Source: Thermomonas carbonis
GTDB lineage: Bacteria > Pseudomonadota > Gammaproteobacteria > Xanthomonadales > Xanthomonadaceae
DNA: 64,000 bases
Assembly: GCF_014396975.1 (NCBI RefSeq)
Contig: NZ_CP060719.1
Span: 840,001-904,000, forward strand
Reading direction: 5' to 3'
Positions 230-41,844 of this stretch are shown here, one piece after another. Under the pieces are notes generated by a model. The model was given only the letters and a program-made list of their open reading frames with translations, did not search any database and was not told where the DNA came from. A program made the translations under genes and the position numbers. Position 1 is the stretch's first letter; each line of letters begins with the position of its first letter.

Positions 230-1660
230 ATGACGGATTCGCACCACGACGCAGTGCGTCGCGAGAATCTGCAGCGGGCGCAAGCCAACGGCGCACAAAG
301 TGCCTCGCCACTCGCACTCGCGCATCCTTTCAATGGCCGCTGGACCCGCCGCCACTGGGCGCATGCCAGCCTCTTCGCGACCATCGGTGCCTTGCTGGCA
401 GCGATCGTGCCGGGCTTCTCCACCGCACTGGAAGCCGCGCCGAATACCCAGCGCACCACCCTGTCGCTGGCCTTGCCGCAGCTGCGCCTCGCCCGCGCCG
501 ACAAGGATCACTGGCAATCCGTCAGCCTGAAACCCGGGCAGACCCTGAGCGGTGTGTTCGATGAGCTGGGCATTCCCTACAGCCAGCTCGAAAAAGTCAT
601 GCAGCATCCGAAGATCAAGCCCGCGCTGCGCAAGCTGCGCCCGGGCACCGAGCTGAGCTTCAACCTGCCCAGCGATGGCAGCGTGCGGGCGATGCGCATC
701 GAGGCGGCACCGGGCATCGGCGACGAGCCGGTGGAGCTGGAATTCGACGGCGACGCCCTGCGCGAGCGCGCCATTCCACAGGAAGTCACTACCCGCACGG
801 TGGTGTTGAGCGGCGAAGTCGGCAAGTCGTTGTTCGCCTCCGCACGCAAGCTCGGCCTGGGCAGCTCGCAGCTGAACCAGCTGACCGACGAGATGTTCAA
901 GTACGACATCGACTTCGACTCCGACCTGGACGAAGACGATCGCTTCAGCGTGGTGGTGGATCAGACCTGGAAGAACGGCCAGTTGGCGAGCACCGGCCCG
1001 GTGCTGGCGGCCACGTTCACCATGGATGGCAAGCTCAAGAGCGCATTCCGCCACCTGCGCAATGGCAAGCCGGAATACTTCACCCCGGACGGGCGCTCGC
1101 TGAAGCGCGCTTTCATCCGCATGCCGATCCCGTACGCGCGCCTGAGCTCCGGCTTCGGCGGTCGCAAACACCCGGTACTTGGGCGCTTCCGCATGCACAA
1201 GGGCGTGGACTACGCGGCCGGCACCGGCACCCCGATCCAGGCCGCCGGCGACGCGCGCGTGGAACTGGTGGGCTGGAAGGGCGGCTACGGCCGCACGGTG
1301 ATCCTCAATCACGGTGGTGGCCGCACTACCCTGTACGGGCACATGTCGCGCTTCGCCGGGATCAAGCCGGGCCAGCGCGTGTCGCAGGGCACGGTGATCG
1401 GCTACGTCGGCAGCACCGGTCTGGCCACCGGTCCGCACCTGCACTACGAATTCCGCGTCAACGGCGTGCACATGAATCCGTTGAAGATGACCCTGCCGCC
1501 ACCGCAACCGCTCAGCGGTGCTGCCCTGATCGCATTCAAGAGCGAGACTAGCCGCGCCTTGGACAAGATCCGCGAGGTCGAGGACGTGGTCTTCCAGCTC
1601 GACGATGGCAGCCGCGTCGCCAGCACCCGGAAGCCCACAGGCATTCGTAAGAAAGGTTGA
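230..1660 (+). CDS. M23 family metallopeptidase (cell-wall endopeptidase)
   Basis: A 476-residue envelope protein that probably cleaves peptidoglycan cross-links. A membrane anchor or signal segment lies around residues 48-65. It is followed by an OapA/LysM-like region (about 95-150) and a Csd3-type middle domain. The LytM/M23 zinc peptidase domain covers about 310-415. Zinc ligands are visible as H323 and D327 (HKGVD) and the HLH motif at 403-405. The start at 230 has a strong GGGGAGAG ribosome site and a good upstream promoter. The next gene is anmK and ampG lies nearby, so this end of the window deals with wall turnover. Length and layout match MepM-type proteins of xanthomonads. Which bond it cleaves cannot be read from sequence. 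Confidence 0.9.
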
Positions 1661-25920: not shown

Positions 25921-28229
<2,309 letters not shown>

Positions 28230-28297
28230 CCTTCGGCATGTCCGTGCCGCATGGGCGTTTCCGTATGCTTCAGCTTCGGACCACACGGAGAGACGCC

Positions 28298-30385
28298 ATG
28301 TCGCTGCACCGCACGCTCATCGCCAGTTCGATCGCCGCCTGCCTGCTCTCTGCCTGCGATCGCGCGCCGAGCGAGCCCACTGCCCAGGCCGCCGCACCTG
28401 CTGCCGCGCCGGCGTCGATCAACGATGTCGAGCTGATCCCGCGCGAGGCGCTGTTCGGGAATCCGGAGCGCGCCGCGGTGCAGATCAGCCCGGACGGCAA
28501 ATACCTGAGCTGGATCGCCGCCGTCGACGGGGTGATGAACGTCTGGGTCGCCCCGGCCAACGACACCGCCAAGGCACGCTCCGTCACTGCCGACAAGGCA
28601 CGCGGCATCCGCCAGTACTTCTGGAGCCACCATCCGGACACGCTGCTGTACATGCGCGACACCGGCGGCGACGAGGATTTCCATCTGTTCTCGGTGGACC
28701 TGGCCAGCGGAACAACGCGCGACCTCAGCGATTTCCCGAAGACGCGCGCGCAAGTGGTCGGCGTCAGCCATCTGCACCCGGGCGCGGTACTGGTCGGCAT
28801 GAACGATCGCGACCCGAAGTGGCACGACCTCTACAGCGTCGACCTCGCCACCGGCCAACGCACGCTGGTGCAGAAGAACACCCTGGAATTCGCCGAATAC
28901 ATCGCCGACCCGGACTTCAAGGTCAGGATGGCGACCAAGGCGCGCACGGATGGCGGCAGCGACCTGCTGGAACCGGACGGCAAGGGCGGCTGGAAGATCG
29001 TGGGCGAGATCCCGTTCGCCGATTCGCTGACCAGCTTCCCCGGTGGCTACACCACCGACGGCAAGACCCTGTATTTCATCGACTCGCGTGGCCGCGATAC
29101 CGCCGCGCTGTTCGCCGTCGACACCACAACCGGCGCCAAGACGCTGGTCGCCGACAACCCGCGCGCGGATGTCAGCGATTCGCTGCGCGCCCCCACCACC
29201 AACAAGGTGCAGGCGGTTGCGATCAATCACCTGAAGGAAGAATGGAAATCGGTCGATCCCGCCATCGCCGCCGACCTGGACACACTGAAGGCAATCGGCC
29301 CCGGCGAAACGTGGGTCGCGTCGCGCACGCAGGACGACAAGACCTGGATCGTCGGCTACGCCGCCGCCGAATCGCCAGCGGTGTTCTATCGCTATACGCG
29401 CGGCGGCAAACCGGAGGAATTGTTCTCCGTGCGCCCCGCGCTCGACGGCAAGCCGCTGGTGCCGATGTGGCCGCAGGAAATCACGTCGCGCGATGGCCTG
29501 AACCTGGTCAGTTACCTCACCCTGCCCAAGACCGCGGACGCCAACAACGACGGCAAGGCCGACACACCGGTTCCGATGGTGCTGCTGGTCCATGGCGGCC
29601 CGTGGGGACGCGACGTCTATGGCTACAACGGCACGACCCAGTGGCTGGCCAACCGCGGCTATGCGGTACTCAACGTCAACTTCCGCGGCTCCACCGGCTT
29701 CGGCAAGCAGTTCACCAACGCCGGCGACGGCGAATGGGCCGGCAAGATGCACGACGACCTGATCGACGCGGTGGACTGGGCGGTCGAGGGCGGCGTCACC
29801 CGCAAGGATTCGGTCGCGATCATGGGCGGCAGCTACGGCGGCTACGCCACCCTCGCCGGGCTGACCTTCACCCCGGACACGTTCAAGTGCGGCGTCGACA
29901 TCGTCGGCCCCTCCAACCTCAACACCTTGTTGAGCACGATCCCGCCCTACTGGGCCGCGTTCTTCGAGCAGTTCGCCAAGCGCGTCGGCGATCCGCGCAC
30001 GGAGGCCGGCAAGCAATTGCTGGAGGAACGCTCCCCGCTGACCCACGTCGCCAAGATCACCAAGCCGCTGCTGATCGGCCAGGGCGCCAACGACCCGCGG
30101 GTGAAGCAGCCCGAGAGCGACCAGATCGTCAAGGCGATGCAGGAGAAGAAGATCCCGGTGACCTACGTGCTGTTCCCGGACGAAGGCCACGGCTTCGCGC
30201 GACCGGAGAACAACAAGGCGTTCAATGCGGTGACCGAAGGCTTCCTGGCGCAATGCCTGGGCGGTCGCGCGCAACCGATCGGCAACGACTTTGCCGGCTC
30301 CAGCATCAGCGTGCCAGCCGGCGCGGACGGCGTGTCCGGCCTGGCGGAGGCGCTGAAGTCGCACACGGCGGCGGTCAAGAACTGA
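28298..30385 (+). CDS. S9 family prolyl oligopeptidase-like lipoprotein
   Basis: 695 residues. The start at 28298 opens into a lipoprotein signal with lipobox LLSAC, so it is anchored in the envelope. The N-terminal half is a seven-bladed propeller (ISPDGKYLSWIAA, SVDLASGT repeats). The C-terminal hydrolase has catalytic Ser512 (GGSYGG), Asp599 (GANDPRV) and His631 (DEGHGF). This matches dipeptidyl-peptidase/acylaminoacyl-peptidase relatives that trim peptides in the periplasm. A TATGCT -10-like box precedes it. It is convergent with the SagB-like gene. Confidence 0.92.
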   Translation: MSLHRTLIASSIAACLLSACDRAPSEPTAQAAAPAAAPASINDVELIPREALFGNPERAAVQISPDGKYLSWIAAVDGVMNVWVAPANDTAKARSVTADKARGIRQYFWSHHPDTLLYMRDTGGDEDFHLFSVDLASGTTRDLSDFPKTRAQVVGVSHLHPGAVLVGMNDRDPKWHDLYSVDLATGQRTLVQKNTLEFAEYIADPDFKVRMATKARTDGGSDLLEPDGKGGWKIVGEIPFADSLTSFPGGYTTDGKTLYFIDSRGRDTAALFAVDTTTGAKTLVADNPRADVSDSLRAPTTNKVQAVAINHLKEEWKSVDPAIAADLDTLKAIGPGETWVASRTQDDKTWIVGYAAAESPAVFYRYTRGGKPEELFSVRPALDGKPLVPMWPQEITSRDGLNLVSYLTLPKTADANNDGKADTPVPMVLLVHGGPWGRDVYGYNGTTQWLANRGYAVLNVNFRGSTGFGKQFTNAGDGEWAGKMHDDLIDAVDWAVEGGVTRKDSVAIMGGSYGGYATLAGLTFTPDTFKCGVDIVGPSNLNTLLSTIPPYWAAFFEQFAKRVGDPRTEAGKQLLEERSPLTHVAKITKPLLIGQGANDPRVKQPESDQIVKAMQEKKIPVTYVLFPDEGHGFARPENNKAFNAVTEGFLAQCLGGRAQPIGNDFAGSSISVPAGADGVSGLAEALKSHTAAVKN

Positions 30386-30396
30386 CGTGACCGCAG

Positions 30397-30425
30397 CTGG
30401 CCGCGCGGCTCAGTCGCGCGGCCAG
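30397..30425. terminator. GC-rich hairpin between convergent S9 peptidase and SagB-like genes
   Basis: CTGGCCGCGCG (30397-30407) pairs perfectly with CGCGCGGCCAG (30415-30425) across a 7-base loop. It straddles the end of the SagB-like gene. No T-run follows, so it may act as a bidirectional barrier rather than a classic intrinsic terminator. Confidence 0.5.
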
Positions 30426-31648
30426 ACCTTGCGGTTGGGATCGAACTCGGACTCGGTCAACGTGTCCGTGCGCGCGCCGAACCCGCAGACCACCAACGGG
30501 CTTTGCCTATAGCCGGTGAACCCGAACGCACGCTCCAGGTCGACCTCGTTGATCGCGCCGGTGACGAAGGGCCCAAGCCCGGCCTGGGTAGCGCACAACT
30601 GCAGGGTTTGCGACAGGTGGCCGGCGTCCAGCACGCACACGCGATATGCCTTGGCGTGGTTGCGGTACTTCCAGAAATTGCGATGGAAGCGCGGCGCCAG
30701 CACGCACAACACTGCGGCATCGGCAAAGAAGTCCTGGCCGGCGACCGCGATGCGCGCGAACGCATGCAGCTCATCGTCGCTCCAAACCCGCTGCGCGGCA
30801 TCGCCCAAGGGCCGGGTGCATGCGTCGCCGAGCTGCGGCGGGGCGATCGCAGGCGCCACCGGTTCCAGCGCATGTGACTCGATGCGATACCGGTACAGGC
30901 CGGGCGCGATGCCCTCCACCCGCTGCACGATCAGCAGGCAGTCGGTGGGATGCAGCGAACCACCGGACGGGCTGGTGCGCTTGTAGACGTCGAAGCCAGG
31001 CGCGGGATGGCCGATGCCGCGCGCGCCGAACACCCGTGCCATCAGCTGCGAGAACGCCGCCAGCGGCACCTGCGCTTCTGGATCGTAGTTGCGGCAGGTC
31101 GTGCGGGTATCGAGCAAGGCGTCGAAGTCGTCGCGTTCGATGCGCGGCAAGGCGAGTTGCGATTCCGGCGACAGGCACGGCTCCACAGGGGATGGCGGCA
31201 GGCCGTGCTGGCGCAACAGGCCTTCGTTGGTATCGACGTCGGCCTCGGCCATGCCTTTCGGTCCGTCGACGCCTTCCCAGCGCGCGGCCATGTGCGCCAC
31301 CGCAGCGGGCGGATGCCAGCCTAGTTCGCGGAAGTTCGTATCGGCGGGTGCGACCTCTTCATCTTCTACGTTCGTCAGCAGCAGCCCTGCGCCGAGCAGC
31401 GCATCCACCGCATCGCCACCGAAACCGGCATCCAGTTCATCGCGTTCGATCCAGTCCACCGGGCTTAGCGCGCCCAGCACGAGCGCATGCGCGGCGTCGA
31501 CCTCGATCGCCGCACCCAGGTGTGGCGCATGCGCAAACCACGCCAGCCGACTCACCACGCCGGTACCGCCTGACAACAAGTCGTCCAACTGGAAGCTGGC
31601 CACCTCGCGCGGCTCCAGCCACACCACCGCGCATCGCCTGATCAACAT
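30410..31648 (-). CDS. SagB-like dehydrogenase of a RiPP locus (putative peptide maturation dehydrogenase)
   Basis: 412 residues. The C-terminal two-thirds is a nitroreductase/SagB-type flavin domain: TRTTCRNYDPEAQVPL, then SPSGGSLHPTDCLL and LYRYRIESHALEPV, with NHAKAYRVCVLDAGHLSQTL later. The first 150 residues are a separate N-terminal domain. SagB-type enzymes oxidise azolines to azoles in peptide natural products. I recall this subgroup as TIGR04511, found beside a small precursor and a cyclase-like protein in Xanthomonadaceae. That is exactly the arrangement here, with the precursor divergent 60 bases away. No YcaO cyclodehydratase is visible in the window. Substrate and chemistry are therefore open. 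Confidence 0.82.
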   Translation of the reverse strand: MLIRRCAVVWLEPREVASFQLDDLLSGGTGVVSRLAWFAHAPHLGAAIEVDAAHALVLGALSPVDWIERDELDAGFGGDAVDALLGAGLLLTNVEDEEVAPADTNFRELGWHPPAAVAHMAARWEGVDGPKGMAEADVDTNEGLLRQHGLPPSPVEPCLSPESQLALPRIERDDFDALLDTRTTCRNYDPEAQVPLAAFSQLMARVFGARGIGHPAPGFDVYKRTSPSGGSLHPTDCLLIVQRVEGIAPGLYRYRIESHALEPVAPAIAPPQLGDACTRPLGDAAQRVWSDDELHAFARIAVAGQDFFADAAVLCVLAPRFHRNFWKYRNHAKAYRVCVLDAGHLSQTLQLCATQAGLGPFVTGAINEVDLERAFGFTGYRQSPLVVCGFGARTDTLTESEFDPNRKVWPRD

Positions 31649-31708
31649 GTCGACTCCGCACTGTTCCGATTGCTATTGTCGGCGTTCCAATCAACAGGGG
31701 GAAACACC

Positions 31709-31984
31709 ATGACTCAGGACGGTCCGCCCGGCTTGCCGCCGCGCATCGCAAAGCTGTTGCTCGACAAGCTGGAAACCGACGACGCCTTCCGCGAAGCCTT
31801 CGCCAAGGCACCGGGACAGGCGCTGCGCTCGATCGGCCACGCCGATGCCGCGCCGTGCATGGCGTTGAAGGCAGGTCAGACGCTGGCGTCGCCGGCGCAG
31901 ATCAAGGCGCAGCGCAGCAAGCTGGAGGAAGTGATGACAGGCATCCAGGGGATGGACTGCGCCTTGGCGTCACAAGAGAACTAA
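31709..31984 (+). CDS. RiPP-type precursor peptide (NHLP-related, putative modified peptide)
   Basis: 91 residues from the ATG at 31709, which has an AGGGGGA ribosome site. The leader-like part reads RIAKLLLDKLETDDAFREAF (12-31) and then KAPGQALRSIG (33-43), the fold pattern of Nif11/NHLP leaders. Only two cysteines exist, Cys50 and Cys84. The tail ends GMDCALASQEN. No double-glycine cleavage site is obvious, so the core is undefined. I recall the family as TIGR04509. The stop overlaps by 4 bases the stop of the convergent cyclase gene. A weak promoter (TCGACT, 18 bases, TATTGT at 31674-31679) lies upstream. Confidence 0.78.
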   Translation: MTQDGPPGLPPRIAKLLLDKLETDDAFREAFAKAPGQALRSIGHADAAPCMALKAGQTLASPAQIKAQRSKLEEVMTGIQGMDCALASQEN

Positions 31985-34533
31985 TGCGGCTTGCCCGCTG
32001 ACTGCGTCGCCCCTCTGGCAGCAGGTGCTGCCAGAGGGTTGGCGGTTGGTTCGGCATTCGACAGCAAGGCCTCCCGCGACACCGCGACGTTGAAGAAGCG
32101 CAACACTTCCGTGGTTGTGGCTTCCGTGAACACACGTCCCCGACGCGTCGCCAACCACTTCCCATGCACCTGCATGCCTTCTGCATTACCAGTCGCCTGC
32201 TCTGCACGCATCAACCCCCAATGGGCCGCGACGAGCGCATCGTCGCGCTTGGCGATGGGACGCAGACGCATCACGGCCGCCTGCGGCTTGCCGGCAAGCC
32301 GCTCTTGCTCGGCCATCACGACCTGCTGAAGCTGGCCGACGGTCGGATAGTCGCGAGGCACGCTGCTTGACTGCGTGACACGCAAGGCGTCCTCCACACC
32401 AACGGCATCGTCAAGCTGCGCCGACAGCAGGCCGGCATACAGGCGCATCTCGGTCGATGTCGGCGGATAGATCGCATCGGCCGCAGCCGCATCGGCATCG
32501 ACCGCCTCCAGTAGCCGCCAAATCAGACGGCGTGCTTCGGGGTTGTTGGTCACGACCGCAACACTCGCGATGGCGGCGCGCGCGCGCAGCGCTTCGAGCA
32601 CATCGTTCGCGCCAATCGCATCCTTCAGCCACGCATCGGCGGCATCGGCCGATTTCTGCCATTGCCCGCGATCGATCCAGGTCACCACGGCGGCATCGTG
32701 TTTCCAGCCGTCCCTTCCGTTGGTGCCACTCATGTAGACATTGTCGGATTGCGCATGCTCGCCGCGCGCGTCGTAAGCGCGCGCATACATCACACCGAAT
32801 CCGCTGAACCCGCCAGCCCGCGAACGCCGGAATTCCGCAAGCGCTTCTTCGTAGCGTTCCTGGCCGAGCAATGCAGTCGCCAAAGCGTAGCGACGGGCTT
32901 CGAGATTTTCCGCCTGCGGTTTCATGGCGCCGCGTATCGTAGCCTCCATGCGCTTGAAGTCGTTGAGCTGGTGCCATTGGTTGGTACCCAGACGTCCCCG
33001 CAACCGGTAATCATCCGGATACAGCGCGAGGTACTGCTCTGCTTCGCGCAGGTACGCCATTGGCGATGAATGCTGGGTCAGAAGCAGGTCGATCCTCGCC
33101 CGCTCCTGCAGGGAAAGCCGCTGCGGGATCGTTAGTGCCTTGCGTCTAGCCTCGGTTGCCTTCGCAACGTTGTCCAGGCTCGAATACAAGTCGGCCATGT
33201 CGGCATAGGCCAGCGCAAACTGCGGATCCAGTTGCAGCGCGCGCCGATACAGGCCAAGCGCCTGCTCGCGATCGCGGGTGGTCGCCACCACATTACGCGC
33301 CACCGCAAACGCCTTCAACGCGTCCAGGCTCGGCGTGGCCACGTTCGGCAGCGGTACCGAGGTCTTCTCCACGTTCTGCATCGCCTCGCCGAGCTGCTCG
33401 CGCAACTGGTCGGTGACGTCGTCGATCGAACCCAGCGCGGATTCGATGCCCTTGCCGTCGGCGGACACCGCGTACACGGTGGTCTGGGTGCGGGGGTCGA
33501 CCACTTCCGCGCTCACCCGCAGGCGGCCTCCGACTTCGGCCACGGTGGGCAGCAGCAGCGCGCGCGCGCCGTCGCGCAGGGCGATCTCGGAGCCGCTGGC
33601 GCGATCGACCTTGGCGTCGTCGGGCCGCTGCATGCGCTGCATGGTCTCGCGCATCTTCAGGTCGCTGAGCACGTTGACGTAGCGCGACTGTTCCAGGCTG
33701 ATCCGGAACGCCTGCTCCAGCGAGTCGTCCAGTCGCGGGTCGCCGGTGAGGTTGCGCAGGTCGCCGACCACCACCCAGTCGCGTTCGCCGAATGCGATCG
33801 CGGGTTGCGGCCGAGTGATGAACCAGCCGCCGACCAGCAGGCAGCCCAGCAGCATGGTCTCCGCGGCCAGCGCCACCGGCCGCCGCCATAGCGGCAGGTC
33901 GCGCCAGGCCTTGGGCGTGTGCGATGGCATGCGCAGAGGCGCAAGCCCGGGCTCGCCGACCTCGTAGATTTCCTGTGCTTCCGGCACGCCCTTGAAGCGC
34001 CAGCGACCGTAAGACTTCCATACCAGCAGTTCGCCGCGTTCGCCGAGTTCACGCGCGGCGCGATGCGCGAGCGGTTCGGCGGTAGCGGACAGCAGGATCT
34101 GCCCGGGCCGGGCCAGTGCCATCAAGCGCCCGGCCAGCGGCTTGGCCAGGCCCTCGACCTCCAGCGACTTGGCGCCAAGCTGCACCGCGTCCACGCTGTT
34201 TTCCCAGAGCAGCACTTCGCCGACGTGCAAGCCGGCGCGCGCCTGCAACGGCTGATTGTGCTCGCGGCCCAATTCGCGCAGGCCGCGCACGTAGTCCAGG
34301 GCGAAACCGAGGCCATCGATCGGCCGCTCGAAGATCAGCAACAGGCCGTCGCTGCGGTCGATCAGGCGGCCGCGCCAGCGTTGCTGCAGGTCCAGCACGA
34401 TGCGGTCGTGGGCACGGAACAGGTCCGCCGCGGCGGTGTCACCGATGCGCTCCACCAGCCCGGTCGAATCGACCAGGTCGGTGAGCAGCAGGGTGCGCAC
34501 CTGCGGCGTGGTGGGGACCTGCGACTCCGCCAT
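31981..34533 (-). CDS. Putative peptide-modification-system cyclase (class III cyclase domain, TM, TPR)
   Basis: 850 residues. Residues 12-190 form a class III nucleotidyl cyclase-like domain with both metal Asp positions (D19 in LLTDLVDST, D62 in RSDG). One membrane helix follows at about 220-240. A periplasmic FlgO-like region (VVVGDLRNLTGDPRLDDSLE) and about eight TPR-like units come next. By eye the purine-selecting Lys position is Ile58 and the transition-state Asn is Pro132, while Arg136 is kept. I recall this architecture as TIGR04510, linked to the neighbouring precursor and dehydrogenase. The ATG at 34533 follows an AGGA site and lies 2 bases after the upstream stop. Confidence 0.82.
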   Translation of the reverse strand: MAESQVPTTPQVRTLLLTDLVDSTGLVERIGDTAAADLFRAHDRIVLDLQQRWRGRLIDRSDGLLLIFERPIDGLGFALDYVRGLRELGREHNQPLQARAGLHVGEVLLWENSVDAVQLGAKSLEVEGLAKPLAGRLMALARPGQILLSATAEPLAHRAARELGERGELLVWKSYGRWRFKGVPEAQEIYEVGEPGLAPLRMPSHTPKAWRDLPLWRRPVALAAETMLLGCLLVGGWFITRPQPAIAFGERDWVVVGDLRNLTGDPRLDDSLEQAFRISLEQSRYVNVLSDLKMRETMQRMQRPDDAKVDRASGSEIALRDGARALLLPTVAEVGGRLRVSAEVVDPRTQTTVYAVSADGKGIESALGSIDDVTDQLREQLGEAMQNVEKTSVPLPNVATPSLDALKAFAVARNVVATTRDREQALGLYRRALQLDPQFALAYADMADLYSSLDNVAKATEARRKALTIPQRLSLQERARIDLLLTQHSSPMAYLREAEQYLALYPDDYRLRGRLGTNQWHQLNDFKRMEATIRGAMKPQAENLEARRYALATALLGQERYEEALAEFRRSRAGGFSGFGVMYARAYDARGEHAQSDNVYMSGTNGRDGWKHDAAVVTWIDRGQWQKSADAADAWLKDAIGANDVLEALRARAAIASVAVVTNNPEARRLIWRLLEAVDADAAAADAIYPPTSTEMRLYAGLLSAQLDDAVGVEDALRVTQSSSVPRDYPTVGQLQQVVMAEQERLAGKPQAAVMRLRPIAKRDDALVAAHWGLMRAEQATGNAEGMQVHGKWLATRRGRVFTEATTTEVLRFFNVAVSREALLSNAEPTANPLAAPAARGATQSAGKPH

Positions 34534-34535
34534 GG

Positions 34536-35555
34536 CTAGTCCTGCCACTCCACGCGGTCGCCGCCCAGGCGTTTCGCGCGATACAGCGCGGTGTCGGCCT
34601 GCCCGTACCAGTGTTCCCAGTCGTGCGCGGCGTCGGCGATCACGCAGGCGCCGATGCTCAGGGTGGTGATCTGCGGCGGCACGCTCTGCATCTGCCGCAG
34701 GGTGCGCGCGCTGGCGGCGATGTAGTTGGCCATCCGCGCCACGTCCTGCGACTGTCGGCCGGCCACCAGCAGGCAGAATTCATCGCCGCCCAGCCGGCAG
34801 GCGATGTCGTCCGGCCCGGACACCGCCCGCAGCAGGTTGGCCACGCTCTGCAGCACGCGATCCCCGGCCAGGTGGCCATGGGCGTCGTTGATCGCCTTGA
34901 AGCGGTCGCAGTCGATCAGCACCAGACTCTGTCCGCCCAGTCCCTGGCTGCGCCGGCGCTGGTCGACGTGCAGGGCAAAGCCGCGGCGGTTGGTCAGTCC
35001 GGTGAGTTCGTCGGTGCGGGTCAGCACCTCGGTCTGGTTCAATCTGTGCGCGGTGGCGCGCAGCGTATCCAGCGCCATCTGCAGTTCCTGATTGCGCCGG
35101 CGCAGGCGTGCGATCAAGCCCTGTTCGTTGTAGACCACGCGCATGATCGCGCGGCGCAGGAAATGCGAGAGCAGTTGCGGGTCGCGCTGGGCGAGCAGGT
35201 CGAATTCGTGGCGGCCCAGTTCCAGCAACACCCCGTCCTCGACCATGGTCGCGTCGGCGCTGCGCGCGTGGTCGCCGATCAGCAGGCCGAGTTCGCCGAA
35301 GAATTCGCGCGGTCCGAGCCGCTTGGCCACCAGGTCTTCGCCGAAGTCGAGTTCGATCGCACCACTGGCGATCACGAACATGCTGGTGCCGAGGTCGCCG
35401 CGGCGGAAGAGCGGCGTGCCGGCATCGATCCGGCGGGCACGCCCGACCTGCGCGAACAGCGCGTACTCGCTGGCGATCAGCACCGAGGCCGTGGGATCGT
35501 CCACGTCCCGCCGGCTGTCGTCGTCGTGCACCTGCGCTGCCACACTTTCCGCCAC
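34536..35555 (-). CDS. Cyclic nucleotide-binding domain plus GGDEF diguanylate cyclase
   Basis: 339 residues from a GTG at 35555 with a GGGGG ribosome site; the open frame upstream has no domain homology. Residues about 30-140 are a cNMP-binding domain (RRGDLGTSMFVIASGAIEL, FFGELGLL, then ARSADAT, the phosphate cassette). A coiled coil is followed by a GGDEF domain from about 180 with canonical GGDEF. The RxxD inhibitory site is absent (GPDD). It should make c-di-GMP in response to a bound ligand. It lies directly upstream of, and is probably cotranscribed with, the cyclase-TPR gene. Confidence 0.86.
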   Translation of the reverse strand: MAESVAAQVHDDDSRRDVDDPTASVLIASEYALFAQVGRARRIDAGTPLFRRGDLGTSMFVIASGAIELDFGEDLVAKRLGPREFFGELGLLIGDHARSADATMVEDGVLLELGRHEFDLLAQRDPQLLSHFLRRAIMRVVYNEQGLIARLRRRNQELQMALDTLRATAHRLNQTEVLTRTDELTGLTNRRGFALHVDQRRRSQGLGGQSLVLIDCDRFKAINDAHGHLAGDRVLQSVANLLRAVSGPDDIACRLGGDEFCLLVAGRQSQDVARMANYIAASARTLRQMQSVPPQITTLSIGACVIADAAHDWEHWYGQADTALYRAKRLGGDRVEWQD

Positions 35556-35701
35556 CCACGTCCCCCGACACGCTGGAGGCCACGAGAATACACCGGCCTC
35601 TCCATCTCGGTTGAACGCAGGCCGGCGCCACGGCCGGCCCTGCGCCGCGAACGTAAAAATCCCACACGGCCGACCCAGGGCGCGAACGCCCACCGGCATG
35701 C

Positions 35702-35734
35702 AAGCCGCCGGGCCACCACTGCCTCAGGCGGCTT
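35702..35734 (-). terminator. Hairpin at the 3' end of aceA
   Basis: AAGCCGCC (35702-35709) and GGCGGCTT (35727-35734) are perfect complements across 17 bases. They overlap the last codons of aceA. No clear T-run follows, so intrinsic termination is only possible. The rest of 35556-35701 shows no gene. Confidence 0.3.
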
Positions 35735-37022
35735 TGCTTTCGCCGTGGAACTGCTCCTCTTCGGTGCTGCCCTTCAGCGCCACCGTCGAGCTCTTGCCGC
35801 CCTGGATGGTCTGGGTGATCGCATCGAAGTAGCCGGTGCCGACCTCGCGCTGGTGCTTGACCGCGGTGAAGCCGCGATCCGCTGCCGCGAACTCCTTCTC
35901 CTGCAGCTCGACGAAGGCGCTCATCTGCCGGCGCGCGTAGCCATGCGCCAGGTCGAACATGCCGTAGTTCAGCGCGTGGAAGCCGGCCAGCGTGATGAAC
36001 TGGAACTTGTAGCCATAGGTCGCGATTTCCTTCTGGAAGCGGGCGATGGTGGCGTCGTCCAGGTTCTTCTTCCAGTTGAAGCTCGGCGAGCAGTTGTAGG
36101 CCAGCAGCTTGCCGGGGAATTTCGCGTGGATCGCCTCGGCGAACTTGCGGGCGAACTCCAGGTCCGGCTTGCCGGTTTCGCACCAGACCAGGTCGGCGTA
36201 CGGCGCATACGCCAGGCCGCGGCTGATCGCCTGGTCCAGGCCGTTGTCGGTCTTGAAGAAGCCTTCCATGGTGCGCTCGCCGGTGCAGAACGGCTTGTCG
36301 TTGTCGTCGATGTCGGAGGTCACCAGGTCGGCGGCTTCGGCATCGGTGCGGGCGACGATCAGCGTCGGCACGCCCATCACGTCGGCGGCCAGGCGCGCGG
36401 CGGTCAACTTCTCGATGGCCTCGCGTGTCGGCACCAGCACCTTGCCGCCCATGTGGCCGCACTTCTTCACCGAGGCCAGTTGGTCCTCGAAGTGCACGCC
36501 GGCGGCGCCAGCCTCGATCATCGCCTTCATCAGCTCGTAGGCATTCAGCACGCCGCCGAAGCCGGCTTCGGCATCGGCCACGATCGGCTGCAGGAAGTCG
36601 ATGGAATGGTCGCCCTCGGCGTGGTGCAACTGGTCGGCGCGCAGCAGGGTGTTGTTGATGCGCTTGACCACCTGCGGCACCGAGTTGGCCGGGTACAGCG
36701 ACTGGTCGGGATACATCTCGCCGGCCAGGTTGGCGTCGGCGGCGACCTGCCAGCCGCTCAGGTAGATCGCCTTCAGGCCGGCCTTGACCTGCTGCATCGC
36801 CTGGTTGCCGGTCATCGCGCCCAGCGCATTGACGAAGTCCTCGGTGTGCAGCGACTTCCACAGCTTCTCCGCACCAAGCCGGGCGATGGAATGCTCGACG
36901 TGCACGGTGCCGCGCAGGCGCACCACGTCCTCGGCCGAGTAGGCCCGGGTGATCCCGGCCCAGCGCGGATTGTTGGCCCAGTCCAGCTTCAGTTGTTCGG
37001 CGCTCGGCAGGTGGTTCTTCAT
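35724..37022 (-). CDS. aceA: Isocitrate lyase
   Basis: 432 residues. It cleaves isocitrate to glyoxylate and succinate in the glyoxylate bypass. The active-site hexapeptide region is [16 protein letters not shown]. Other conserved segments are [25 protein letters not shown] and the [11 protein letters not shown] stretch. It follows aceB after 61 bases on the same strand, giving an aceBA operon. Length is typical of the bacterial enzyme. Confidence 0.97.
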
Positions 37023-37083
37023 GGCAGGTCCTCGGTGGGGTGCAGCAAGAGTGGGTTGGCGATGCGGTCGGATCGATGCGATG

Positions 37084-38706
37084 TCAGTCGATGCGTTCGT
37101 AGGCGGGAAGCGTCAGGAAGTCGGCGAGCTCGTCGGCATGGGTGAGCCGATCGAGCATCCCGATCGCTTCGTTGATGCGACTGGCACCGGGCATCCGCAG
37201 TTGGTCGTTGAACTTGCTGGGCAGGCCGATGAAGGCGCGCTCGAGCAGGGCGAAGTCGACCGGCGTGCCGTCGTCCAGATGCAGCGGCTCATGGCCGTCG
37301 TCGGCGAAGTGCAGCCACTGCCACAGCTGGGTGCGGGCGATCTCGGCGGTCGCGGCGTCTTCCATCAGCCAGTGGATCGGCACGCAGCCGTTGCCGTCGA
37401 GCCACGCCGCCAGGTAGCGCACGCAGACCTCGACGTTGCCCTCGAAGCCGGCCTTGCTGATCGTGCCCAGCGAGGGCCGCAACAAGTCGTCGCGCTCCGC
37501 ATGCACGTCATCGCGGGCGATATGGACCTGGTTGGCCTCCGGCATGTGCGCGTCGAACACCTCGCGGGCCAACGGGATCAACGCGGGATGTGCGACCCAG
37601 GTACCGTCGTGGCCGGCAGTGACTTCGCGCAGCTTGTCGGCGCGGACGCGGGCCAGCGCGGCACCATTGGCAGCGTCATCGCCACTGATCGGGATCTGCG
37701 CGGCCATGCCACCCATCGCATGCGCGCCGCGGCGATGGCAGGTCTTGACCAGCAACTCCGAATACGCGCGCAGGAACGGCTGCACCATCGTCACCTGGCC
37801 GCGCTCTGGCAGCACCCGGTCGCGATGCCGGCGCAGGGTCTTGATGTAGGAAAAGATGTAGTCCCAGCGACCGCAGTTGAGGCCGACGATGCGGTCCTTC
37901 AGCGCGTGCAGGATCTCGTCCATCTCGAACGCGGCCGGCAGCGTCTCGATCAGCACGGTGACCTTGACCTGGCCGTGCGACAGGCCCAGGGTGGCCTCGA
38001 TGTCGCCGAGCACCGCGTTCCACAGCGCCGCCTCTTCCATCGACTGCAGCTTGGGGATGTAGAAGTAGGGGCCGCGATCCTTGGCCGCCAGCGCCACCGC
38101 GTTGTGGAAGCAGAACAGACCCAGGTCGAACAGGCTGGCCGAAAGCCGCTGGCCGTCGACCAGCACGTGCTTCTCGTCCAGGTGCCAGCCGCGCGGGCGC
38201 ACGATCAGGACGGCCTGCTCGGCCTCGGGTCGGAGCGCGTAGGCCTTGCCGTTGTCACCGGTGAATTCCAGGGTGCCTTTGATCGCCTCGCGCAGCGCCT
38301 CCTGGCCGGCCAGCAGGTTCGCCCAGGTCGGCGCGGTGCTGTCCTCGAAGTCGGCCATGTAGCAGTTGGCACCGGAGTTCAGCGCATTGATCACCATCTT
38401 CGGGTCGACCGGACCGGTGATCTCGACGCGGCGGTCCTGCAGCGCGGCCGGGATCGGCGCGACGCGCCAGTCGCCGTTGCGGATCGGGGCGGTGTCGGGG
38501 CGGAAATCCGGCAGGGCGCCGGCATCGAAGGCGGCCTGGCGGGTGCGGCGGGCGGCCAGGCGGGCCTGGCGCTCACCCTCGAAGCGGACATGCAGGCCGG
38601 CGAGGAAGGCTTGCGCCGCGGGGGTCAGCAGCGCCTCCTGGCCCGGCAGGCTCCGGGTCAGATCCACGGTGCCCGGCTCGGGGCGGTCTTGCAGCACAGC
38701 GGACAT
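37084..38706 (-). CDS. aceB: Malate synthase A
   Basis: 540 residues. It condenses glyoxylate with acetyl-CoA to malate. The start at 38706 gives the standard N-terminus and leaves the palindrome-rich gap free. Conserved stretches include [41 protein letters not shown] and [14 protein letters not shown]. It is the first gene of the aceBA operon and is divergent from a LysR regulator, which probably controls it. Confidence 0.97.
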
Positions 38707-38762
38707 CGACAACTCCAGCGTTCGATCAGTGGGGAACCGAACCATCCGCCTGCGTCTGGTAT

Positions 38763-38807
38763 TTGACAAACCAGATTTGTCAATGATTACTATTAGAAAA
38801 TCTAATA
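38763..38807. promoter_or_regulatory. Two perfect palindromes between aceB and the LysR gene
   Basis: TTGACAAA, spacer CCAGA, TTTGTCAA (38763-38783) is followed by TATTAGA, AAA, TCTAATA (38791-38807). Both have perfect arms; the second fits the T-N11-A pattern of LysR sites. The stretch is strikingly AT-rich. It also carries a TTGACA hexamer on each strand, so it likely overlaps both promoters. Confidence 0.65.
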
Positions 38808-38821
38808 CAGATATCGAAACC

Positions 38822-39790
38822 GTGGCGGATAGCCCTTCCAGCAACATCCGCTTCGCCTACAAGGGCTCGCGACTGAAGCCTTTGCGGGCGTTCTGCCAAG
38901 TGGCGCGGCTGGGATCGGTGAGCCGTGCCGCGGAAGCGCTGTACCTCAGCCAACCGGCAGTGACCCTGCAGTTGCAGGCGCTGGAGCGCGAACTGGGCGT
39001 GCGCCTGCTGGAGCGCAGCGGACGCCGGCTGACCCCCACCCGCGAAGGCGAACTCCTCTACGAACTGGCCAAGCCGCTGGTGGAAGGGCTGGACGGGCTG
39101 GCGGCCAGCTTCCGCGAGCAGGTGCGCGGGCTGGATGCCGGCGAGCTAAACGTGGCCGCCGGCAGCTCGACCATCCTGTACCTGCTGCCCGGGATCGTGG
39201 ACGCGTTCCGCCAGCGCCATGCCGACGTACGCCTGAGCCTGCACAACGTCACCGGTGCCGGCGGCCTGGACCTGCTGCGCAACGATGCGGTGGATCTGGC
39301 CGTGGGTTCGATGCTGGATGTGCCCGCGGACCTGACCTACGCCCCGGTCTACAGCTTCGAGCCGATGCTGATCATGCCGCCCGACCACCCGCTGGCCTCC
39401 AAGCGCGACCTGAGCCTGCAGGACCTGTCGCCGTACGGCCTGATCCTGCCGCCCAAGCGCCTGACCACGTATCGGCTGGTCGACCTGGTGTTCCAGCAAA
39501 ACCGCGTGCCGTATACGGTGGCACTCGAAGTCGGCGGCTGGGAGGTGATCAAGCAGTACGTGGCGATGGGGCTGGGGATCAGCATCGTCACCGCGATCTG
39601 CCTGACCGAGGCCGACCGCCAGCGGCTGGCGGCGCGCTCGCTTGCGCGCTGGTTTCCCTCGCGCAGCTACGGCATCGTGATGCGCAAGGGCAAGTTCCTG
39701 TCATCGCAGGCGCGCGCCTTCGTCGAGCTGATCAAGCCGGAGCTGCTGTCCCCGCGCGAGCAGGATCGTGGCGGGCACTCCGAGCGCTGA
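38822..39790 (+). CDS. LysR-family regulator, probably of aceBA
   Basis: 322 residues from a GTG at 38822. An in-frame ATG at 38783 would place both palindromes inside the gene and add AT-rich, unrelated codons, so it is rejected. The winged helix reads LRAFCQVARLGSVSRAAEALYLSQPAVTLQLQALE (about residues 20-54 in two halves). It is followed by the effector-binding domain (GELNVAAGSSTILYLLPGIV). Divergence from aceB with two palindromes between implies direct control of the glyoxylate bypass. The effector is unknown. Confidence 0.85.
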   Translation: MADSPSSNIRFAYKGSRLKPLRAFCQVARLGSVSRAAEALYLSQPAVTLQLQALERELGVRLLERSGRRLTPTREGELLYELAKPLVEGLDGLAASFREQVRGLDAGELNVAAGSSTILYLLPGIVDAFRQRHADVRLSLHNVTGAGGLDLLRNDAVDLAVGSMLDVPADLTYAPVYSFEPMLIMPPDHPLASKRDLSLQDLSPYGLILPPKRLTTYRLVDLVFQQNRVPYTVALEVGGWEVIKQYVAMGLGISIVTAICLTEADRQRLAARSLARWFPSRSYGIVMRKGKFLSSQARAFVELIKPELLSPREQDRGGHSER

Positions 39791-39900: not shown

Positions 39901-41844
39901 TTACTTGCCCGGCGTGGCCAATGCGTCGGTCTTGTAGATCGCCACGTGCGGCACGCCGTCGCTGCCGATCCAGCCGCGGTACATGCCGCCGGTGTTGAAC
40001 GGGAACGCCACGCTGCCATCCGCGCCCAGCGCGATCGCGCCGCCGTCGCCGCCGGCCTTGGGGATGTCGCGGTTGATGACGCGGTCGGCGGCGCGGGCGA
40101 TGGGATCGCCGGCCAGCCGCACCCGCGCGCAGATCTCGTGGGCGGCGGCGGCGCGGATGTAGAACTCGCCCCAGCCGGTGCTGGACACCGCGCAGCGGTC
40201 GTCGGCCCAGGTGCCGGCGCCGATGATCGGCGCATCGCCGACGCGGCCGTAGCGCTTGTTGGTCATGCCGCCGGTCGAGGTCCCGCCGGCGAGCCGTCCC
40301 TGCGCGTCCAGTGCCAGCGCGCCGACGGTGCCGAAGTAGGCCTTGCCGGGCAGCACCAGCGGCGTGTTGCTGGCCTGCGCCTTCTTTTCCTCGTCGAGCG
40401 CCTTCTGCAACTGCTGCCAGCGCTTCTCGACGCGGAAGTACGCCGGGTCGACCAGGGTGACGCCCTGCTCCTTCGCGAACGCCTCGGCACCATCGCCGAC
40501 CATCATCACGTGCCTGGACTTGTCCATGATCGTGCGCGCCAGCAGGATCGGGTTCTTCACCCGGCGCAGGCCCGCGGCCGCGCCGGCCTTGCCGCTGGCG
40601 CCGTCCATCAGCGATGTGTCCAGCTCGTTGCGTCCGTCGTGGGTGAACACCGCGCCACGCCCGGCGTTGAACTGCGGCGCATCCTCCAGCACGGTGATCG
40701 CGGCGGTCACCGCATCCACCGACGGCGCACCGGCCTGCAACTTCGCGTAGCCGGCCTTGAGCGCCTCGCGCAGGGCGGCGCGCGCCGCCTCTTCCTCGGC
40801 CGGCGTGAGGTCACCAGGCTCCACGCCCGCACCGCCATGGATCACCAGCAAGGGCGCATCCAGCGCGACCAGCACGCCATTGCGCACGGCGTAGTGGCGC
40901 TGGGCCAGCGGTTTTTCGACGCGGCCCTCGGGCAGGTGCAGCACGGAGTCCACGCCGGCGACCACGGTGTCGACGCGATCGAGCGTCATCGCGGTGTCTT
41001 CTGCCTGCTTCTGCCTGAAACCACCCTTGACCACGATCGCGCCGGCACCCGGTGCGGTGGCGTAGACGCGGGCACGGCCATCGCCTTCGACCGCGACCGC
41101 GGCGTCTTCGTCCACGCCGAGCCCGATCAGCGGCTTGCCGGCGAGGTGCTCGCCCTTGGCGACAAAGGCAATGAGACGACCAAGGCGGCCGCGCTCGCTG
41201 AAGTGGGTATCGGTGATCACGCCCTTGAGCTGGGCGATGTGCAGGAAGTCGGTTTCGATGGTGTTGCCGTCGCCGAGCGGGTCGGCCAGCGCCGCCGGGC
41301 TGACCTGGCTGCCGCCATCCATCGCGCCGTAAAGATATTCGCCGAGCATCGCCAGGCCGGCGCTGGTGCCGCCCAGCGGCTTGCCGGCGCGCACGTGCGC
41401 ATCCAGCGCCTCGGCGACCGGGGTCCCGCGCCAGTAGCGCACGTAGCGCGACTGGTCGCCGCCGGCGATGAAGATGCCGTCCGCACGCTTCAGCGTGGCC
41501 AGGATCTTCGGATCGGTCGATGCCTCGCGATCCTTGAACACGAAGGTCTCGACCGACTTGATGCCGCCGACCTCGTTGAAGAATTCCTCGCCGATCTCGC
41601 CGGCCTGCGAGGCGCGCAACACCACGATGTGGCCATTGCCGGCCTGCTTCATGAACCAGCGCATCGCATCGAAGTTGCGGTCGCCGCCGCCCATCAGCAG
41701 CAGGCCAGGCTGGATCGTGCCGGGCGTCTTCGCGGCGACATCACCGATCACGTAATGGCCGACATCGGCCGCCAGCGCGCCGCCTGCAAGCAGCAGCCCC
41801 AGTGTTGCCGCAAGGAATTTCGAAACGCCGGCACGTCGCATCAT
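39901..41844 (-). CDS. Secreted cyanophycinase / isoaspartyl peptidase fusion
   Basis: 647 residues. A signal peptide (LAATLGLLLAGGALA) leads to an S51 cyanophycinase-like domain (about 27-320). This has IFIAGGDQSRY, nucleophile Ser161 in GGTSAGLA, and THFSERGRLGRL (213-224). From about 330 a complete Ntn-hydrolase isoaspartyl peptidase/asparaginase follows (LLVIHGGAG; Thr506 nucleophile in FGTVGAL; GGTSTGGMTNKRYGRVGD). The first domain should release beta-Asp-Arg from cyanophycin-like polymers and the second should split it to Asp and Arg. It is divergent by 84 bases from the ECF/FecR/TonB-receptor module. Substrate is inferred from families. Confidence 0.87.
   Translation of the reverse strand: MMRRAGVSKFLAATLGLLLAGGALAADVGHYVIGDVAAKTPGTIQPGLLLMGGGDRNFDAMRWFMKQAGNGHIVVLRASQAGEIGEEFFNEVGGIKSVETFVFKDREASTDPKILATLKRADGIFIAGGDQSRYVRYWRGTPVAEALDAHVRAGKPLGGTSAGLAMLGEYLYGAMDGGSQVSPAALADPLGDGNTIETDFLHIAQLKGVITDTHFSERGRLGRLIAFVAKGEHLAGKPLIGLGVDEDAAVAVEGDGRARVYATAPGAGAIVVKGGFRQKQAEDTAMTLDRVDTVVAGVDSVLHLPEGRVEKPLAQRHYAVRNGVLVALDAPLLVIHGGAGVEPGDLTPAEEEAARAALREALKAGYAKLQAGAPSVDAVTAAITVLEDAPQFNAGRGAVFTHDGRNELDTSLMDGASGKAGAAAGLRRVKNPILLARTIMDKSRHVMMVGDGAEAFAKEQGVTLVDPAYFRVEKRWQQLQKALDEEKKAQASNTPLVLPGKAYFGTVGALALDAQGRLAGGTSTGGMTNKRYGRVGDAPIIGAGTWADDRCAVSSTGWGEFYIRAAAAHEICARVRLAGDPIARAADRVINRDIPKAGGDGGAIALGADGSVAFPFNTGGMYRGWIGSDGVPHVAIYKTDALATPGK

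Follow-up and report, generated by a model that had tools for sequence, protein, structure and literature searches.

A YcaO-free SagB-type dehydrogenase and its NHLP-like precursor beside a guanylate cyclase gene pair: a candidate peptide trigger of cGMP signaling

Genes of the locus and their products

The window, by which we mean the whole 64,000-nucleotide stretch of Thermomonas carbonis DNA analyzed here, carries a gene for a stand-alone SagB-family FMN dehydrogenase (positions 30410-31648, minus strand, 412 amino acids; TIGR04511), a gene for a 91-amino-acid precursor (31709-31984, plus strand; TIGR04509), and a gene for a cyclase-TPR membrane protein of the XC_0250 type (31981-34548, minus strand, 855 amino acids from a GTG; TIGR04510). 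The presence of these three genes, proposed in a first-pass annotation, is confirmed, except that the cyclase gene had been ended at 34533, where an alternative ATG start lies. The family names given there also proved right, with scores above the curated NCBIfam cut-offs for the precursor (65.1 bits against 34), the cyclase-TPR protein (914.6 against 400), and the dehydrogenase (455.9 against 240). A fourth gene belonging to the unit had been missed, encoding a cNMP-binding and GGDEF diguanylate cyclase protein of the XC_0249 type (34536-35699, minus strand; PF00027 and PF00990). It immediately precedes the cyclase gene, in the same orientation, as the first of the pair, and the two overlap by 13 bases if the cyclase starts at the GTG. 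The dehydrogenase and precursor genes diverge from a gap of 60 bases (31649-31708), in which both promoters are presumed to lie; no sigma-70 promoter consensus was found in 30380-35900 and no riboswitch or other Rfam RNA in 26000-39000. A prolyl-oligopeptidase-family (S9) gene with a lipobox-like start (28298-30385) converges on the dehydrogenase gene.

The description of the precursor as NHLP-like held through its TIGR04509 match. Against the Os1348 model NF038399 it scored 22.2 bits, below the cut-off of 40, and the classical NHLP family TIGR03793 was not among its hits up to an E value of 0.1. The window's genome (3.46 Mb, a single contig) contains no C39 peptidase exporter domain (PF03412), and the classical combination of a TIGR03793 precursor with a C39 exporter is not found. 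The helical, NHLP-like leader (residues 8-45; 31730-31843, plus strand) has a mean pairwise identity of 46% and is modeled with helices at residues 11-23, 25-33, and 35-41 (block pLDDT 88-90). Cys50 (31856-31858, plus strand) is near-invariant, being Cys in 94 of 102 rows, and in a wider precursor set a Cys stands before the LAxK motif in 83 of 125. The predicted helical fold extends up to residue 77, with a block pLDDT of 76 for residues 71-80 and of 46-58 from residue 81 on. The C-terminal tail (residues 78-91; 31940-31981, plus strand), at 20% mean pairwise identity the fastest-changing part of the precursor, is the likeliest core. A general Gly-Gly cleavage site is absent: of 128 precursors, 13 have GG somewhere in residues 21-70. 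The argument that a tail without Cys, Ser, or Thr speaks against azoles proved unusable, since every one of the 128 has at least one of the three among its last 25 residues, and 16 have none of them among their last 15. The precursor hits numbered 102, from which one of at least 150 residues was dropped, and alignment A3 combines the window precursor with 65 of 98 others selected from 101. A profile search for solved relatives of the precursor gave nothing significant (best an Hsp70 fragment, E 0.091, and nitrile hydratase alpha, E 0.13), nor did a fold search with its model (best E 0.6); the first 12 rows of the latter include the RiPP precursor SonA, the proteusin DprE2, nitrile hydratase, Os1348, and an unrelated cytochrome.

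The dehydrogenase also exceeds the cut-off of the SagB-type family TIGR03605 (94.5 bits against 78.4, bearing out its description as SagB-like) and matches PF00881. Its AlphaFold2 model (pLDDT 92) matches the fold of McbC, BmdC, and ThcOx, with ordinary FMN nitroreductases close behind. By Z score, plain FMN nitroreductases tie with the azoline oxidases (8cqs, 19.2, 2.2 Å over 176), so the chemistry of the enzyme cannot be told by fold alone. Lys327-Tyr328 (30665-30670, minus strand) lie in a W-K-Y-R motif that is invariant in 50 sequences; W-K-Y is also present in the ThcOx alignment, and we take the equivalent Lys-Tyr pair to be catalytic in McbC. The N-terminal domain (residues 1-92; 31373-31648, minus strand) has a winged-helix/RRE-like topology in the model, with strands, one short helix among them, followed by three helices, and we infer that it may be an RRE-like domain that binds the leader; no RRE or PqqD family match was found for it among the Pfam and NCBIfam hits.

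Azoline dehydrogenases such as McbC, ThcOx, and BmdC act on azolines made beforehand, whereas no YcaO (PF02624) is present here in the entire 3.46-Mb genome, as the first-pass annotation had suspected from the window. The arrangement of a TOMM or linear azol(in)e-containing peptide cluster, with YcaO beside the dehydrogenase, is thus not found. Of the 82 sampled genomes that have TIGR04511, 75 likewise lack YcaO; in the other 7 YcaO is always on a different contig from TIGR04511, and in 4 of these it has its own weaker SagB-like neighbor within about 10 kb. Azole chemistry as the default for this enzyme was rejected because of the absence of YcaO, and a partnership of TIGR04511 with a distant YcaO because the two are on different contigs in all 7 genomes that have both. 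The cyclodipeptide oxidases of the AlbAB type, which act on cyclodipeptides and form filaments, are more distant from the dehydrogenase than McbC is.

The "cyclase" of the family name TIGR04510 was considered as a peptide cyclase and rejected: the family assignment stands, but the domain is a class III nucleotidyl cyclase (residues 10-205; 33934-34521, minus strand; 70 relatives average 75% identity to the window protein), matching the guanylate cyclase XC_0250. A single transmembrane segment is predicted from the hydropathy maximum at about residues 226-244 (33817-33873, minus strand), and the Arg-Arg before it predicts an N-inside orientation by the positive-inside rule. The TPR domain (residues ~411-830; 32059-33318, minus strand) is predicted to be periplasmic and is the proposed sensor; over residues 411-855 the mean identity of the relatives is 30%. 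In Xanthomonas campestris, XC_0250 makes cGMP and its effector XC_0249 answers with c-di-GMP, according to the text available of An et al. 2013 (PMC3770947). All six functional residues of XC_0250 (D41, D71, L73, A150, L157, and A161) are present in the window protein, and D41, D71, and A150 are invariant in 71 cyclase proteins. The sampled loci do not include X. campestris itself; in a Xanthomonas locus among them (L139), the residues stand at the exact published numbers. The cGMP contacts of XC_0249 (F73, E90, H98, N145, and E146) are all present in the window's cNMP-GGDEF protein, and among relatives F73, E90, H98, and E146 occur in 70 of 70 and N145 in 64 of 70. The chain 5h5o was taken for the XC_0249 type by spacing and identity; the XC_0249 structure entry of An et al. 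is given in the accessible text as 4KG1 (PMC3770947). With the same domain order and gene adjacency as well, as far as the published description available goes (PMC3770947), the window pair matches, at the level of sequence, the cGMP to c-di-GMP relay of XC_0250 and XC_0249.

Distribution and neighborhood

Among 299 genomes of the order, each of the three families scores above its cut-off in 82; at least one family is present in 84, and 80 of these have the complete set, which is more than chance. A precursor homologue, at least one, is found in every one of the 80 named TIGR04511 loci, which are the best of 205 confirmed, so the conservation and co-occurrence that the first-pass annotation relied on are borne out. 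Alignment A1 holds 12 of 30 loci, the window within that count, and alignment A2 holds the window and 49 of the 80. In a wider sample of 350 genomes from the class, TIGR04511 is over its cut-off in 4; all of these, the window's genome included, belong to the window's family, and a further 67 genomes have weak matches only.

The claim of a three-part unit was right in that the three genes go together, but the unit has four parts in xanthomonads and two in six actinobacterial loci. The four-gene block is present in 69 of the 74 nonactinobacterial loci among the best 80 of 205; four of the remaining five stop at a contig end, and L117 is a real exception. The six actinobacterial loci (from the same best 80 of 205) have the precursor and dehydrogenase without the cyclase; since TIGR04510 is missing from these genomes altogether, the peptide must have another function in them. 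No exporter is shared by these six; what they have in common is the precursor, the dehydrogenase, and reading frames opposite these two, and an MFS transporter gene adjoins the dehydrogenase in 2 of them. Conversely, genome G278 (locus L182) has an intact cyclase and cNMP-GGDEF gene but matches neither TIGR04509 nor TIGR04511; the relay can thus occur where the peptide pair is missing. Cyclase-precursor-dehydrogenase triples stand in tandem after a single cNMP-GGDEF gene in three genomes. The cyclase domain of L176 departs from the six functional residues at four positions (D41, L73, L157, and A161), while five precursors, the dehydrogenase, and the TPR domain are retained; the cNMP-GGDEF gene was not found in its 15-kb stretch. 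In G096 and G203 a TM-TPR copy without a cyclase domain is positioned after the dehydrogenase. The flanks are also conserved, with aceA in 66 and aceB in 65 of 74 loci from the best 80 of 205, and the co-occurrence is therefore partly inherited synteny. A homologue of the S9 gene is found in the flanks of just 17 of 73 loci from the same set.

Co-variation between the parts

Distances of the cyclase domain follow those of the flanking genes, whereas the TPR domain, which changes fast, shows co-variation with the core of the precursor. The change comes as a step near residue 400 of the cyclase-TPR protein, with no rise toward the 3' end (69 rows). With all other parts controlled (65 rows), the partial distance correlation of the TPR domain was 0.37 with the core and -0.12 with the leader, that of the dehydrogenase N-terminal domain was 0.26 with the leader and -0.02 with the core, and that of the catalytic domain was 0.35 with the core and 0.14 with the leader. 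When aceB, cNMP-GGDEF, and the cyclase domain alone were controlled, the values were 0.30 for TPR-leader, 0.49 for N-domain-core, and 0.45 for catalytic domain-leader, and the specific pattern thus emerges only after full control. The partial Mantel p is at best 1 in 2001 and is optimistic for related sequences, and identity in the TPR alignment is about 30%.

The changes of tail class needed per tree were 7 for the TPR domain and 8 for the dehydrogenase, against 11 for the membrane-proximal part, 14 for both the cyclase domain and cNMP-GGDEF, and 15 for aceB, on quick trees without support values (65 rows). The classes are our own regular expressions; 5 of the 65 rows are in none, two of these (L092 and L108) being like the short class. 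Rows include the window, loci without all parts were dropped, and the smallest distance was used for loci with several precursors; the flanking genes gave 66 (aceA), 65 (aceB), 45 (ComM), and 16 (S9) rows, and LysR, intended as a control, was found in the window only. The precursor, dehydrogenase, and sensor domain thus appear to co-vary separately from the output domain. Because the end of the cyclase gene that encodes the TPR domain adjoins the end of the precursor gene that encodes the core, part of this co-variation could stem from a recombination tract.

A possible peptide input to the cGMP relay

The locus suggests that a modified peptide could be the trigger of the adjoining cGMP signaling pair, the enzyme beside the peptide gene probably being the one that modifies it. 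Our tentative reading, which we hold as a serious possibility, is that of a peptide-signaling cassette in which the modified peptide gates a receptor guanylate cyclase feeding the cGMP to c-di-GMP relay. The dehydrogenase would bind the leader through its N-terminal domain, as the topology and co-variation of that domain suggest, and the FMN domain would carry out a two-electron oxidation in the core region, at Cys50 or in the tail, with no prior YcaO step; a cyclodipeptide-oxidase-like C-C desaturation seems the likeliest chemistry and azole formation unlikely. A C-terminal piece would be released and reach the periplasm, which is the weakest step, and would bind the rapidly evolving TPR domain, as indicated by the co-variation, the tandem triples, and a homologue whose cyclase domain has decayed while its peptide genes persist. 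The cyclase domain would then make cGMP and the cNMP-GGDEF protein would answer with c-di-GMP, given the published activity in X. campestris and the conservation of all reported functional residues. Together, the core, the dehydrogenase, and the TPR domain would make up a specificity cassette similar to the pherotypes of agr and comQXP, where peptide, modifying enzyme, and receptor sensor diverge together and the output domain is conserved. The receptors of agr and comQXP are histidine kinases, whereas the receptor here would be a guanylate cyclase.

The product could instead be a bacteriocin-like antimicrobial of the kind proposed for the Os1348 cluster, the TPR protein serving for self-protection or as a feedback sensor and co-varying as an immunity protein would. 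There is a precedent, in the available text on the Os1348 cluster of Pseudomonas sp. Os17, for an NHLP-clan small protein with a SagB-like gene and no SagC or SagD, where Os1348 contributes to antibiotic activity (PMC7726476). That four-gene cluster shares the pair with the window but has GNAT and HEXXH/peptidase-like genes and, as described there, no such cyclase. An antimicrobial would also suit the pair without a cyclase in the six actinobacterial genomes, with its MFS transporter gene at two loci, the cyclase-less TM-TPR copies of G096 and G203, and the S9 gene with its lipobox-like start. Yet immunity would not need a signaling enzyme as partner or the invariance of D41, D71, and A150, the genome has no C39 domain (the exporter searched for), and the S9 homologue is infrequent; we consider this reading unlikely. 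A modified small protein that stays in the cytoplasm, uncleaved and unexported, as an intracellular or redox-sensitive regulator tied to the cyclase by shared regulation is a still less probable one, for although the missing C39 domain and Gly-Gly site, the conserved Cys50, and the predicted helix to residue 77 would fit it, the tail changes fastest and the core co-varies with a predicted-periplasmic domain.

We give somewhat less credence again to the view that the two halves are adjacent by conserved synteny only, recombination tracts through the cyclase 3' end, precursor, and dehydrogenase producing the co-variation. The aceA/aceB flanks, the physical adjacency of TPR and core, the leader correlations that are clear until other parts are controlled, and the lone relay of G278 all accord with it. 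However, linkage predicts that the leader, lying between core and dehydrogenase, tracks the TPR domain, and the controlled value is negative; the catalytic domain, though farther away, follows the core more closely than the N-terminal domain does, there is no ramp toward the 3' end, and whole triples are duplicated in three genomes. Least probable is azole formation with a non-homologous or trans-acting cyclodehydratase: the azoline oxidases McbC, ThcOx, and BmdC are among the closest relatives of known structure in sequence and fold, but 75 of the 82 genomes have no YcaO, and in the other 7 it is placed as described above.

The annotation had called this the best candidate for an undescribed system, and half of it has in fact been described, because the cyclase matches XC_0250 and its neighbor the effector XC_0249; for the link to the peptide pair, no description was found. 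The available text of An et al. names no peptide or dehydrogenase gene, the word "peptide" having no occurrence in the main text, so both are an addition here; it calls the TPR domain of XC_0250 uncharacterized (PMC3770947), as does the accessible part of a 2019 review. The NCBIfam model names speak of putative peptide modification and of no cGMP, cNMP-GGDEF gene, or receptor role. A literature search by accession or name found no paper on the three families, and no link of them to cGMP or a peptide signal was recognized among the matches listed (titles, abstract starts, and cited passages).

More broadly, and with greater reserve than for the locus itself, we propose that Lysobacterales (Xanthomonadales) may have peptide-gated receptor guanylate cyclases, in which an oxidized ribosomal peptide made without YcaO binds a periplasmic TPR domain and raises cGMP and then c-di-GMP, in lineage-specific pairs. 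If true, these would be a bacterial counterpart of the natriuretic-peptide receptors of animals, and the missing input of the XC_0250 pathway would be supplied. In XC_0250/XC_0249, a bacterial pathway that connects cGMP directly to c-di-GMP has been published; the locus offers a concrete candidate for its input, along with a possible role for three NCBIfam families so far named as putative. The case for SagB-type chemistry without YcaO extends over 75 of the 82 genomes.

Gene content and likeness to a cGMP relay

The three open reading frames were borne out where the first-pass annotation had placed them, and the families it named proved correct, with all three proteins lying over the curated cut-offs: the dehydrogenase (30410-31648, minus strand) scored 455.9 bits against TIGR04511 (cut-off of 240), the 91-residue NHLP-like precursor (31709-31984, plus strand) 65.1 bits against TIGR04509 (cut-off of 34), and the 855-residue cyclase protein (31981-34548, minus strand) 914.6 bits against TIGR04510 (cut-off of 400). 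The dehydrogenase also passed the SagB model TIGR03605 (94.5 versus 78.4). The absence of YcaO that had been claimed holds for the whole single-contig genome, where no C39 peptidase domain was found either and where two further nitroreductase-family proteins are present. A gene at 34536-35699, which runs in the direction of the cyclase gene and shares 13 bases with it at the GTG start of the latter, encodes a protein with matches to cyclic-nucleotide-binding and GGDEF domains (cNMP-GGDEF).

The cyclase and cNMP-GGDEF genes recall the XC_0250/XC_0249 pair of Xanthomonas campestris, for which An et al. showed that XC_0250 produces cGMP, which in turn stimulates XC_0249 to synthesize c-di-GMP (2013, PMC3770947). 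In the TIGR04510 protein of a Xanthomonas locus (L139), the numbering of D41, D71, L73, A150, L157, and A161 agrees exactly with that published for XC_0250, and all six residues are present in the window protein. Among 71 aligned cyclase proteins, D41, D71, and A150 are invariant; the counts are 70 for A161, 65 for L157 (otherwise M or I), and 62 for L73 (otherwise F or M). The best solved relative of the cNMP-GGDEF protein is 5h5o, whose residue spacing (17, 8, 47) is that of F73, E90, H98, and N145 in XC_0249 as given in the paper. It is also 94% identical to the cNMP-GGDEF proteins of loci L139 and L170, and we therefore regard it as XC_0249 itself or a very similar protein, even though the structure code in the paper is 4KG1 (PMC3770947). 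All five cGMP contact residues are present in the window protein; across 70 cNMP-GGDEF sequences, N145 is retained in 64 and the other four do not vary.

Distribution of the block and of YcaO

When 299 genomes sampled from the order were scored against the family cut-offs, each of the three families passed in 82 genomes, all three together in 80, and any of the three in 84. The exceptions were G261 (a partial TIGR04510 match at a contig start, below the cut-off), G292 (about 410 contigs, with the precursor over the cut-off, dehydrogenase fragments below it, and no cyclase match), G277 (a precursor match of 21 bits, below the cut-off), and G278 (only the cyclase). At the level of the class, TIGR04511 was over the cut-off in 4 of 350 genomes, all from the family of the window genome, which is itself included.

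A scan of named genomes gave 205 loci, and the precursor was present in all of the best 80. Judged by title, 74 loci in this set are not actinobacterial, and in 69 of them the cNMP-GGDEF, cyclase, and dehydrogenase genes follow one another in that order on one strand; of the remaining five, four are without upstream sequence and one (L117) is without the cNMP-GGDEF gene. In these same best 80 of 205 loci, 88 of 89 precursor matches are antisense to the dehydrogenase. The six actinobacterial loci in the set (L125, L131, L133, L141, L144, and L147, from Streptomyces and Kribbella) have a dehydrogenase with one to five precursor matches and lack the cyclase. No TIGR04510 match was found in their genomes, and no gene besides the precursor and the dehydrogenase is common to all six. 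The precursor-dehydrogenase pair therefore looks like the minimal unit, to which the cGMP pair is joined in the xanthomonad order. In L131 and L133, an MFS transporter gene (PF07690) adjoins the pair.

Of the 299 genomes of the order, 46 have a YcaO, but among the 82 in which TIGR04511 passes its cut-off the number is only 7, and in all 7 the two are on different contigs. In four of these 7 (G199, G296, G258, and G272), a weaker SagB-like match lies no farther than about 10 kb from a YcaO. TIGR04511 thus seems not to be the partner of YcaO. A YcaO also occurs in five of the six actinobacterial genomes.

Co-variation between parts and proposed mechanism

The window cyclase protein and its relatives are 75% identical across the cyclase domain, 68% across the membrane-proximal part, and 30% across the TPR domain. 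We compared distance matrices and scanned the cyclase protein in 60-residue windows by partial correlation with the precursor core, controlling for the cNMP-GGDEF protein and the cyclase domain. Values stayed between 0.00 and 0.07 for windows that ended by residue 400 and lay between 0.36 and 0.53 from window 386-445 onward, with no rise toward the 3' end. The flanking genes do not follow the core (aceA, -0.06; aceB, 0.06; ComM, 0.02), and the S9 gene gave 0.16 on 16 rows. Under a light control (aceB, cNMP-GGDEF, and cyclase domain; 65 rows), correlations with the core and the leader, respectively, were 0.61 and 0.30 for the TPR domain, 0.64 and 0.45 for the catalytic domain of the dehydrogenase, 0.49 and 0.46 for its N-domain, and 0.09 and 0.25 for the membrane-proximal part. 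With every other part added as a full control, they were 0.37 and -0.12 for the TPR domain, 0.35 and 0.14 for the catalytic domain, and -0.02 and 0.26 for the N-domain. This is the pattern that an N-domain binding the leader, a catalytic domain modifying the core, and a TPR domain recognizing the core would give. Tail classes of the precursor, set by our own patterns, were placed on quick trees, where the fewest changes were counted for the TPR domain (7) and the dehydrogenase (8), followed by the membrane-proximal part (11), the cyclase domain and the cNMP-GGDEF protein (14 each), and aceB (15).

Part of the co-variation could come from a recombination tract that crosses the cyclase gene at its 3' end, but a tract alone would yield neither a leader independent of the TPR domain nor a catalytic domain more closely tied to the core than is the N-domain, which lies nearer to it. 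The product might instead be antimicrobial, a reading for which Os1348 is a published precedent (PMC7726476). Gene content, residue conservation, and co-variation are what the analysis shows directly; beyond these, we propose a mechanism in which the core of the leader-bound precursor would be oxidized by the dehydrogenase and the released peptide, once cleaved and exported, would bind as a ligand to the TPR domain of the cyclase protein, upstream of a relay whose activity is published for the Xanthomonas proteins. Export is the weakest step of this peptide-relay mechanism because the genome lacks a C39 domain and no general Gly-Gly cleavage site was found among the precursors. A prolyl-oligopeptidase-family protein (PF00326; 28298-30385, plus strand), which has a lipobox-like start and whose gene is convergent with that of the dehydrogenase, could act as a peptide processor, but only 17 of 73 loci have a homologue in their flanks.

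The TPR domain is called uncharacterized by An et al., in whose main text the word "peptide" is absent (PMC3770947), and likewise in a 2019 review (PMC8042644). Literature searches on the three family accessions and names found no paper, and no recognized link of the relay with RiPPs, NHLP, or pheromones was found among the matches listed. The three families and the relay are already known. As far as these searches show, no description exists of their connection, of the YcaO-free setting, or of the pherotype-like co-variation.

Natural variants and neighboring genes

Three genomes (G281, G110, and G291) have two cyclase-precursor-dehydrogenase triples behind a single cNMP-GGDEF gene (L179, 6030-14724; L180, 4584-13151; L181, 5763-14537), and the repeated unit takes in the receptor candidate together with a peptide and an enzyme of its own. 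In G091 (L176, 5723-12134), the cyclase domain is altered at four of the six residues (D41, L73, L157, and A161), five precursor copies, the dehydrogenase, and the TPR part are kept, and no cNMP-GGDEF gene was found within the stretch. In G096 and G203, the dehydrogenase is directly followed by an additional TM-TPR copy that has no cyclase domain (L177, 8435-10360; L178, 8666-10591), possibly a decoy or protection receptor. The orphan relay of G278 (L182, 7566-11108), with intact cyclase and cNMP-GGDEF genes adjoining ComM, counts against the peptide-relay link, as no precursor or dehydrogenase was found in that whole genome. Nine precursor matches, dehydrogenase genes, and a fragment are packed into about 8.5 kb of G237 (L175, 931-9461), and L174 has two more dehydrogenase genes.

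In the window, isocitrate lyase and malate synthase genes (35724-38847, the latter named from the look of its sequence) adjoin the block, and 66 and 65 of 74 loci, respectively, have homologues in their flanks. Farther along, 39901-41844 (minus strand) encodes a 647-residue fusion protein with an S51 peptidase (cyanophycinase-like) part and an Asparaginase_2 part.
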